This document shows, piece after piece, positions 139-44,365 of a stretch of DNA of 58,183 nt (positions are counted from its first letter, which is position 1; the number at the start of each line of letters is the position of its first letter). The translations under genes were made by a program, and so were the position numbers. Under the pieces are notes generated by a model. That model was not told the origin of the DNA. It ran no database searches and saw only the letters and a list, made by a program, of their open reading frames with translations. Source of the stretch: a virus; the IMG/VR virus record IMGVR_UViG_3300032156_000010, positions 1-58,183 of that record. One strand, 5' to 3'.

Positions 139-157
139 TCTCATAAAGTCGTTAAGA

Positions 158-286
158 CCGGGTGTCGTAGGCGACGGATACTTCGACTTATAATCGAGAG
201 GTCGCGGGTTCGATTCCCGTCTGAGTCTTCGGGCTCGGTAGCTCAGTGGCAGAGCGCTTCCGTACCGTCACCGGCTGTTACCCCGG
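158..286 (+). ncRNA. yrlA: YrlA-type Y RNA with tRNA-like domain
   Basis: Outer stem CCGGGT (158-163) pairs with ACCCCGG (280-286). The shared internal loop (GTCGTA / GGCTGTT) and a second stem GGCGACGG/CCGTCACC follow. The tip is a circularly permuted tRNA-like fold: anticodon-like loop CTTATAA at 187-193, variable AGGTC, T arm at 204-220 with loop TTCGATT, acceptor 3' strand CTGAGTC at 221-227, a TTCG tetraloop at 228-231, acceptor 5' strand GGCTCGG at 232-238, TA, and D arm GCTC/GAGC at 241-255. All seven acceptor pairs form (two are G-T). Bacterial YrlA RNAs bind Ro60 orthologues and carry exactly such a tRNA mimic with a closed acceptor stem. The Ro60 gene starts 34 bases downstream. Confidence 0.88.
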
Positions 287-294
287 CTTTTTTT
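270..294 (+). terminator. Rho-independent terminator after the Y RNAs
   Basis: ACCGG and CCCGG can pair around a short loop and are followed by seven T residues (288-294). The 3' strand is the same one that closes the outer stem of the YrlA-type RNA, so the RNA 3' end and the terminator coincide. Some readthrough would be needed to express the Ro60 gene from the same promoter. Confidence 0.65.
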
Positions 295-320: not shown

Positions 321-1850
321 ATGACACCTTTCAACAAATCCACTCAAGGCTCCGAGAAGACCGTCAATTTTGAGGGCGACCTGGCTTTCAATATGGGGCC
401 CCGAGAGGCGCTCTACGCGCTGGCTTGCACATCGAGCCTCCGGCCGAAATTCTATGTACCGGAAGTGGCGAACGAACTAAAGCGGCTGCGGGCACTGATT
501 AAGCGAGTGCCGGCCGAGTTCGTCGCCAAGCTGGCCGTCTATGTTAGGGAGAAGATGTATCTGCGGACAATGCCGCTGGTACTGGCCGTGGAGCTCTGCA
601 GGGTCCACAAGGGCGACGATCTAGTGCGACGGACCGTCCGGCGGGTCATCAAACGGGCCGACGAACTGGCCGAGATTCTGGCCTACTTTGCGGCGGCCGA
701 GGATCGGATCAGCAGGGATCCGCGGTCGAAGATTTTGAACCGGCTGCCGAAGCAGCTCCGCCTCGGGCTGGCCGACGCCTTTAATACCTTCGACGCATAT
801 CAGCTTGCCAAATACGATCGGGAAACGGCGATCAGACTGCGGGACGTCATGTTCCTTGTCCATCCGAAACCGAAGGATGCGAGCCAGGCCGAGATATTCA
901 AGCGCCTGGCCGAGCAGAGGCTTGAGACGCCCTACACCTGGGAGACCGAATTGTCGGCGAAGGGGAATAAAAAGGAGACCTGGGAGGGGCTGATCGATTC
1001 GGGCAAGGTCGGCTATATGGCCCTGCTGCGAAACTTGCGGAACATTCTCAGAGCTGGCGTCTCCAAGAATCACCTCAAGGCGGTCTGCGACAAGATCAGC
1101 AATTCGGTCGAGGTCGCCAAATCTCGTCAACTTCCCTTTCGGTATTTTTCCGCCTATGTTGAGATCTCCGGCAGCGATCAAGCTGTCTTCGAGAAAGCGG
1201 CCGTTTTATTGGCTCTTGAGGCGGCGACTCTTGCCTCGATCGTCAACGTGGCGATCAGCGAGGAGCGGGTCGTGGTGGCCTGCGATTTTTCGGGTTCCAT
1301 GCAGCACAACGTTTCCGAAAAGTCGGTCATCCAAAACCTGGATATCGGGATCGTCCTTGGGGCTCTCCTGAAAAGCAATCGGAAGACGGCGGTGGTCGGT
1401 ATCTTCGGAGATGAATGGAAGGTGATCGATTTTCCGCCCGGCAATATTCTCGGTAATTGCCTCGCTATGCGGAGACGGATTGGGGAAGTGGGTTATTCGA
1501 CTAACGGCCACCTGGCTGTCGAATGGGCCATCGCGAACAAGATCGAAGCCGATCGTTTTTGCATTTTTACAGATTGCCAACTTTGGGATTCGACCTGGGA
1601 TTTGCCTGTCCGCGGATTAAGAATTTCCGGCTATGGAGCGATGAATGATGCTTGGAACAAATACCAGGCTCTTTATCCCAAGGCCCGGCTGACGCTGTTC
1701 GACTTGACCGGCTACGGGACAACGCCGATTTCACTGAGAAGGCGAGACGTGACGCTGATCGCCGGCTGGTCCGATAAGGTTTTCGATGCCCTGGCCGCGA
1801 TCGAGCGAGGCGAGGAGGCTGTATCGGAAGTCGAAAAGATGGAGATATAG
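321..1850 (+). CDS. rsr: Ro60 orthologue (Rsr), TROVE-domain RNA-binding protein
   Basis: A 509-residue protein with the two parts of Ro60: an N-terminal helical-repeat TROVE ring (about residues 1-310) and a C-terminal von Willebrand A domain with a MIDAS motif DFSGS near residue 322. Ro60 is a ring that holds misfolded or structured RNAs in its cavity and Y RNAs on its outer surface; in bacteria the Y RNA can tether Rsr to the exonuclease PNPase. The start at 321 follows a GGGAGGG ribosome site. Three Y-RNA-like hairpins sit directly upstream, so the phage carries a complete Ro/Y pair. Its role in infection is not visible here; stabilising or processing phage or host RNA is the likely theme. 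Confidence 0.93.
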   Translation: MTPFNKSTQGSEKTVNFEGDLAFNMGPREALYALACTSSLRPKFYVPEVANELKRLRALIKRVPAEFVAKLAVYVREKMYLRTMPLVLAVELCRVHKGDDLVRRTVRRVIKRADELAEILAYFAAAEDRISRDPRSKILNRLPKQLRLGLADAFNTFDAYQLAKYDRETAIRLRDVMFLVHPKPKDASQAEIFKRLAEQRLETPYTWETELSAKGNKKETWEGLIDSGKVGYMALLRNLRNILRAGVSKNHLKAVCDKISNSVEVAKSRQLPFRYFSAYVEISGSDQAVFEKAAVLLALEAATLASIVNVAISEERVVVACDFSGSMQHNVSEKSVIQNLDIGIVLGALLKSNRKTAVVGIFGDEWKVIDFPPGNILGNCLAMRRRIGEVGYSTNGHLAVEWAIANKIEADRFCIFTDCQLWDSTWDLPVRGLRISGYGAMNDAWNKYQALYPKARLTLFDLTGYGTTPISLRRRDVTLIAGWSDKVFDALAAIERGEEAVSEVEKMEI

Positions 1851-42335: not shown

Positions 42336-42364
42336 TTGAAAACCTCCTCATTGAAATTTGACCT

Positions 42365-42427
42365 GCCTTTCATCAGCGCCAGGAGGTCAATCCTAGCGGA
42401 CCGGGCCGCTGATGGCCCGGTTTCGGC
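42365..42427 (-). ncRNA. Type II hammerhead ribozyme 1
   Basis: Minus strand, 5' to 3': GCC, core GAAA, stem III CCGGGCC/GGCCCGG, cleavage triplet GTC, stem I CGCTAGGA/TCCTGGCG (8 bp), core CTGATGA, two extra A, and GGC closing stem II with the first GCC. All conserved hammerhead core bases are present. Predicted cut lies between 42399 and 42398. It begins one base after the preceding stop codon and ends 29 bases before the next ATG. Stem II being the open one defines type II. Confidence 0.88.
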
Positions 42428-42428
42428 T

Positions 42429-44276: not shown

Positions 44277-44304
44277 TCGAAAACCTCCTGAAAAAATTTT
44301 GACC

Positions 44305-44362
44305 CGCCTCGTCAGATCGTGGTCGGTCAAGCCACGATAACCGGGCCGGAGCCCGGTTTCGG
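44305..44362 (-). ncRNA. Type II hammerhead ribozyme 3
   Basis: Minus strand: GCC, GAAA, stem III CCGGGC/GCCCGG, cleavage triplet GTT, stem I ATCGTGG/CCACGAT (7 bp), core CTGACGA (the variable seventh position is C), GGC. NUH allows T at the cleavage position, although GTT is usually slower than GTC. Predicted cut between 44338 and 44337. Begins three bases after the preceding stop codon. Confidence 0.88.
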
Positions 44363-44365
44363 CTT

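Follow-up and report, generated by a model that had tools for sequence, protein, structure and literature searches.

The window analysed here is a stretch of 58,183 bases that makes up one linear IMG/VR virus record (IMGVR_UViG_3300032156_000010) and carries a tailed-phage set of genes, including those for portal, head, tape-measure-like and protease proteins. Its first 300 bases encode a tandem array of three or more Y RNAs, followed by the gene of a Ro60/Rsr protein. The third of these RNAs (about 156-292, plus strand) is of the YrlA type. It combines a Ro60-type stem with a permuted tRNA domain and ends in a run of U residues, with a terminator-like site (273-288) followed by TTTTTTATTT. 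As judged from sequence, the region 184-258 is a circularly permuted tRNA that forms the apical domain of this Y RNA.

The Ro60/Rsr gene (321-1850, plus strand) lies directly downstream of the YrlA-type RNA and encodes a protein of 509 residues with TROVE and vWA_Ro60 domains (Pfam, 7.7e-37 and 2.7e-8, respectively). The residues D322, S324 and S326 of its D-x-S-x-S motif are invariant in an alignment of 11 phage homologues.

The two other Y RNAs precede it on the same strand. The first (1-40, read from the sequence as GAAAGGCCAGTCTCTCTTGCCGGCTGTTCTCC) is represented by its 3' end, being truncated by the start of the record, and shares the 3' motif TCTC-GCCGGCTGTTCTCC with the second (56-138). 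The latter is predicted to fold at -37.3 kcal/mol (z-score -3.5) and is devoid of T, acceptor and D arms. It comprises a basal stem ATGGGG/CCCCAT, an internal region CGTAGG...GCCGGCTG, a stem GAGAGATAC/GTTTCTCTC and a hairpin GCCC-GAAA-GGGC. CGTAGG, GATACTTCGG and GCCGGCTGTT are common to the second and third RNAs, and the stem motifs GTAGG and/or GCCGGCTGTT are present in all Y RNAs of the array.

The permuted tRNA domain

In the lowest-energy fold of the third Y RNA the 5' strand of the Y stem (CCGGGTGTCGTAGGCGACGGATACTT, 158-183) pairs with a 3' strand (259-287) that includes GTACCGTC and ACCGGCTGTT. The ends of the RNA are thus predicted to form a Ro60-type stem, and the GTAGG...TACTT of the 5' strand is also found in relatives. 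The chain then passes into the anticodon stem, where positions 29-31 of the tRNA (CGA, 184-186) pair with 39-41 across a seven-nucleotide loop CUUAUAA (positions 32-38, 187-193) with U33, the anticodon UAU, A37 and A38. Positions 39-43 (TCGAG, 194-198) complete two helical halves, 39-41 with 184-186 and 42-43 with 257-258, both of which covary. They are followed by the variable loop 44-48 (AGGTC, 199-203) and by the T arm GCGGG-TTCGATT-CCCGT (204-220), which is supported by the Rfam alignment, the pair counts of relatives and the fold. The acceptor stem of 7 bp (221-238) consists of the 3' half CTGAGTC (221-227) paired with the 5' half GGCTCGG (232-238), and a UUCG cap (228-231) joins the two. 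After TA (239-240) come the D arm GCTC-AGTGGCA-GAGC (241-255), G26 (256) and positions 27-28 (CT, 257-258), which shut the anticodon stem with 197-198. It is hence between positions 28 and 29 that the Y stem joins the anticodon stem. An earlier note, made from the sequence alone, had listed these elements and placed the opening of the chain at this point, and it was right to the base in both respects.

The search with the Rfam YrlA model that the same note had suggested gives a match at 171-274 (RF02553, E-value 1.4e-6, 36.7 bits), below the 69-bit gathering cut-off, which is a detection threshold and not a biological feature. At that cut-off the model matches none of 15 further loci, several of which are strongly matched by R1, a covariance model built from the relatives described below. 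R1 places the window RNA at 170-272 with 88 bits, the window being part of its training set, and it recovers an independent phage RNA with 92 bits (E-value 2.8e-19). The Rfam YrlA model at its own cut-off misses the closed-loop form.

The T and D arms, the acceptor stem and the anticodon hairpin all persist in the lowest-energy fold of the third Y RNA, where another short helix takes the place of the pairing of 27-28 with 42-43 (-48.4 kcal/mol, as against -41.9 kcal/mol with the pairs enforced). With a folding z-score of 0.1, thermodynamic stability provides no evidence for the domain. The tRNA pairing draws its support from covariation and not from folding energy.

The window RNA has neither the linear order nor the free acceptor ends of a tRNA. 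It encodes neither a discriminator base nor CCA, for which the four-nucleotide cap leaves no room, and by these features of its sequence it is not a translating tRNA. ARAGORN reports a linear tRNA-Ile at 155-230, the kind of product that the earlier note held would speak against a permuted domain. This candidate was computed and rejected, as part of the Ro60-type stem would have to serve as its 5' half, acceptor positions are left unpaired and it reaches 29.5 bits with Rfam, where the annotated phage tRNAs surveyed alongside reach 42-75 bits.

Relatives in phages and bacteria

Viral contigs were scanned for TACTTC-G, the T loop and TAGCTCA, a pattern that included C29 and G30 and left the anticodon loop outside. 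At least 119 stretches were obtained; about ten near-identical matches (L004 and others) proved to be an unrelated repeat, and their removal along with duplicates left 112 distinct YrlA RNAs among the matches listed, to which the counts out of 112 and 82 given below refer. Ro60 is encoded in 89 of the first loci surveyed. A closed seven-nucleotide loop in the exact tRNA register, with 30-31 paired to 39-40, is present in 82/112. The earlier note had regarded the window RNA as an unusually complete mimic; its loop is indeed intact, but a form so common is no oddity of one phage.

Within the 82 closed-loop RNAs, U33 is conserved in 79, A38 in 75 and a purine at position 37 in 81, and the pair 31-39 is seen as CG, AU, UA, GC and GU. 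The anticodon positions 34-36 are diverse inside the fixed U33/A38 frame. Positions 36-37 are U-A in 49/82 and G-G in 27/82, and nine of the 82 have A34 in the anticodons AUG, AUU, ACU and AGU, of a kind that bacterial tRNAs normally avoid. The label Ile(UAU) that the earlier note gave to the window RNA is not upheld as an isotype, the anticodon being hypervariable in relatives and including the A34 types.

In the YrlA chain positions 27-28 come after the D arm and 42-43 before the T arm. This split stem is paired in 80/82 with nine partner combinations, while in 10,000 shuffles the mean was 40 and the maximum 52. When 62 RNAs from Ro60-bearing loci are aligned, 97.4% of the cells of the complete permuted cloverleaf (21 named pairs) are paired, compared to 72% when shuffled and 25-45% when the partners are slid by 1-3 columns. 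The covariation score is 0.636 against 0.155; such scores are inflated by kinship, yet the slid controls, which retain that kinship, drop to 0.07-0.13. By itself, RNAalifold finds the T, acceptor and D arms and misses the anticodon arm; the case for the latter rests on the pair counts of the named structure and on the pair tests. By these pairing data the structure is established at the level of sequence.

When the 82 RNAs are re-cut to linear order, ARAGORN reports a tRNA in every case and the predicted anticodon in 81, while in the natural order just 11 are called. The window RNA so treated is called as tRNA-Ile(tat), a cloverleaf with a seven-nucleotide U33 loop. Chimaeras in which the two halves come from different molecules bring the calls down to 28-32, and a full shuffle brings them to 0. 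Shuffling of the anticodon segment leaves 63-71 calls; since ARAGORN is tolerant of this segment, the calls support the acceptor/T/D architecture and not the loop. The acceptor halves of the listed relatives are linked by short caps that include UUCG, GAAA, GUAA and GCAA.

The tRNA mimicry described for YrlA covers the D, T and acceptor arms (PMC8394870). The Salmonella YrlA (RF02553; PDB 6CU1) likewise adjoins a Ro60/Rsr gene, makes a long stem of its ends and has a T arm, a capped acceptor stem and a D arm in the same permuted order. In the Rfam consensus, which is mainly of the Salmonella type and has no anticodon loop, the Y stem runs straight into the 41-43 strand, whereas in the window RNA a closed seven-nucleotide loop branches between 28 and 29. 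The junction of the two stems slides among the motif-found relatives. It lies mostly at 28/29, at 29/30 in L035, L048, L099 and the second copy of L001, and at 31/32 with an opened loop in L015, L068, L018, L100 and L031. The sliding junctions and the loop-free consensus make the closed loop one extreme of a continuum.

In the permuted tRNA genes of algae and archaea, as in the window RNA, the 3' half of the tRNA precedes the 5' half. The products of those genes mature into tRNAs that end in CCA. The halves in the window differ in being joined by a four-nucleotide cap and embedded in a Y RNA.

Comparison with the YrlA RNAs of other phages, also proposed in the earlier note, reveals that the closed loop recurs in named phages; it is also present in Bacillota chromosomes. 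Xanthomonas phage 10KY502B, Caulobacter phage CcrColossus and Brevundimonas phage Kikimora encode the same RNAs directly upstream of Ro60, where model R1 puts permuted YrlAs with UGU, CUG and GCU loops. In the GenBank records of these phages the RNAs carry the labels tRNA-Thr, tRNA-Gln and tRNA-Ser, features that overlap YrlAs at L123 2172-2239, L124 1673-1740 and L125 2311-2385. These features are probably misannotated permuted YrlAs, in which case phage tRNA inventories need correcting. A match to permuted transfer-messenger RNA (RF04321, 50.1 bits) is also seen downstream of Ro60 in Kikimora (L125 5902-6107). Four chromosomal Ro60 loci of Bacillota (L158, L160, L163 and L166) carry closed-loop YrlAs, all with CUGUUAA (Asn GUU). 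These are possibly prophage copies, and a feature exclusive to phages is rejected on their account.

Change at the anticodon and Y RNAs with a bare stem-loop

When RNAs with a T arm are compared in 28 independent close pairs, the mismatch frequency is 0.43 at position 34, 0.46 at 35 and 0.43 at 32, as against 0.04 each at U33 and 38. Between CcrColossus and CcrPW, the first 104 bases compared around one YrlA contain differences at anticodon positions 34-35 only (CUG to UAG), and the loop of a second YrlA (GUU) is the same in both phages. Within one Y RNA of the stem-loop-only class described below, L359 and L363 differ only at the loop positions 36 and 38.

Position 36 in the T-arm class is nearly always U or G with the matching A37 or G37, and A36 and C36 are almost absent. 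In the 82 listed RNAs it differs from the tRNAs of the same loci (chi-square 48, p 2e-10, kinship uncorrected). The restriction to U or G was considered as a general rule and rejected, since the stem-loop-only class has A36 in 12/35.

A second sample, drawn from over 500 existing relatives, consists of viral loci fetched by the Ro60 protein alone to avoid motif bias. It establishes the linkage of these RNAs to Ro60: in the first 80 loci 84/84 model matches are on the Ro60 strand, and in about 235 loci, the scope of the figures that follow, TACTTC occurs upstream 467 times on the Ro60 strand and 72 times on the other. RNAs with a T arm number 0 on the opposite strand, and 44/47 of their seven-nucleotide loops obey U33 with a purine at position 37.

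The same loci contain 312 TACTTC sites without a T arm. The commonest loop size at these sites is seven (51/159 hairpins), and 35 of the 51 loops have U33 and a purine at position 37. Shuffling of the segments gave a mean of 1.4 and a maximum of 5 in 200 rounds, and the opposite strand gave 1; base composition was preserved in the shuffles and that of dinucleotides was not, and chance could account for a few of the 35. The loops match those of real tRNAs and include CUGUUAA (Asn), CUGUAAA (Tyr), CUGAAAA (Phe), CUUUUAA (Lys), CUGCAAA (Cys), CUUGUAA (Thr) and CUCCUAA (Arg). On this evidence there is a second class of Ro60-linked Y RNAs, with an anticodon stem-loop as the sole predicted tRNA part.

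L167, whose Ro60 is the nearest to that of the window among those found (53% identity), has a Y RNA of this class at 1841-1870, with the Asn-like stem-loop CGGA-CTGTTAA-TCCG. The earlier note had held that loss of the T and D loops in close relatives would count against its reading. That loss does occur in L167, but the anticodon hairpin is what stays, which strengthens the point that the note had made on the loop.

YrlA with its D, T and acceptor arm mimicry is already known from bacteria and phages. No account of a complete anticodon arm, of how diverse and quick to change it is, or of the stem-loop-only class turned up in the literature searched, a set that did not extend to Chen 2014, Wang 2018 and Sim 2020. 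The diversity of the anticodon, its turnover among near-identical relatives against a constant U33 and A38, and the stem-loop-only class are new in the current analysis.

Proposed function of the displayed anticodon arm

A fixed loop frame, a free anticodon, rapid change, several copies per phage and the bare stem-loop together suggest that the anticodon loop is the contact surface, and it is likely to be the working part of the RNA. The phage Ro60 would bind and stabilise the Y RNA, which would present an uncharged and untranslatable copy of a tRNA anticodon arm. During infection the displayed arm could then act as a decoy, or compete as a substrate, for those host enzymes whose target is the anticodon loop; the likeliest of them are the anticodon nucleases of anti-phage defence. 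Phages differ in the anticodon displayed and swap anticodons fast, some carry several Y RNAs, and in some the display is cut down to the bare anticodon stem-loop. Such Ro60-held decoys, in which Ro60 binding, expression and competition for the nuclease are presumed, are put forward tentatively, as a reading with a real chance of being correct that falls short of probable.

Anticodon nucleases of the host such as PrrC, PARIS AriB, VapC and others are effectors of anti-phage defence, and phages answer them with loop-mutated or extra tRNAs (PMC10264068, PMC11555353, PMC11455837). Ro60-held decoys would be a third answer. The window RNA is likened to the T5 tRNA-Lys that acts against PARIS and the T5 tRNA-Tyr that acts against retron-Eco7, where the anticodon loop contacts the host defence (PMC11455837, PMC11555353). 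It differs from the T5 tRNAs, which translate and replace the lost tRNA, in being unchargeable as encoded. If the decoy reading is true, these RNAs would be a new, re-programmable counter to tRNA-cutting defences, and the anticodon displayed should match the host tRNA under attack. The wider proposal, that Ro60 is in phages and some bacteria a holder of diversifying anticodon stem-loop mimics that neutralise host anticodon nucleases, with a specificity reset by two or three bases, is possible and is held with more reserve.

The following observations weigh against the decoy reading. Among the first 80 loci fetched by Ro60, the closed U33 loop is found in only 27/46 of those with a YrlA match, the rest being open or degenerate. 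The Bacillota chromosomes carry the loop with mostly one anticodon (CUGUUAA), and a counter-defence role is less obvious there. Genes for RtcB, RNase PH/PNPase and the Pfam RNA_ligase family are absent from the 58-kb record, so that no repair partner is visible in it. The Salmonella YrlA was not cut by the anticodon nuclease tested (PMC7790460).

The main rival, which is compatible with a decoy mechanism, is that the RNA is an ordinary scaffold as in the Deinococcus Y RNA/Rsr/PNPase system (RYPER). The Y stem would hold Ro60, the tRNA-like domain would tether the host PNPase or another RNase for the breakdown of structured RNA, and the anticodon arm would just complete the fold. Such a role has been demonstrated with Rsr, Y RNA and PNPase of Deinococcus, and it has also been described for YrlA (PMC8394870). 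The window shares with that system a Ro60 protein and tandem Y RNA genes at one locus, and it has the same gene pair and the same T/D/acceptor mimicry. The open or degenerate anticodon regions of many YrlAs in these loci also speak for a scaffold. The window record differs in having no PNPase gene. The scaffold leaves unexplained the fixed U33 and A38 around variable positions 34-35, and also the Y RNAs with an anticodon stem-loop and no T arm, and we consider it somewhat unlikely.

The arm might instead be a bait or sponge for tRNA modification enzymes acting at position 37, which would be titrated or would modify the RNA for its stability or recognition. The synthesis of t6A recognises U36-A37(-A38) and that of m1G37 recognises G36-G37, and 76/82 of the T-arm loops have U36-A37 or G36-G37. 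The departure of position 36 from the tRNAs of the same loci points the same way, and DusA and TruB are known modifiers of the Salmonella YrlA (PMC8394870). The restriction, however, breaks in the stem-loop-only class, and modification needs no hypervariable positions 34-35, which makes this role improbable.

A role as a sensor, in which a cut by a host nuclease in the displayed loop would free or remodel the Ro60 complex and thus signal tRNA damage, is given a similarly low standing. Given the permuted order of the sequence, a cut in the loop would detach the 5' Y strand from the remainder of the RNA, and an rsr-YrlA operon is known to be under the control of tRNA fragments (PMC7790460); the model is the RNA repair operon of Salmonella, which damaged tRNAs switch on. 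Against it, repair genes of the families tested are absent from the record, and the analysis brought out no regulator.

A working tRNA, be it the linear tRNA-Ile(TAT) of ARAGORN or a permuted precursor matured into a translating tRNA, is hardly credible despite the tRNA scores of the un-permuted relatives, in view of the low linear score with unpaired acceptor positions, the few calls in natural order, the cap in place of a discriminator base and CCA, and the A34 anticodons.

Apart from the Y RNA locus, the minus strand of the window has two type II hammerhead ribozymes, at 42357-42428 and 44298-44364 (46.3 and 37.7 bits, respectively), each of which begins 1-2 bases past the stop codon of a minus-strand open reading frame.
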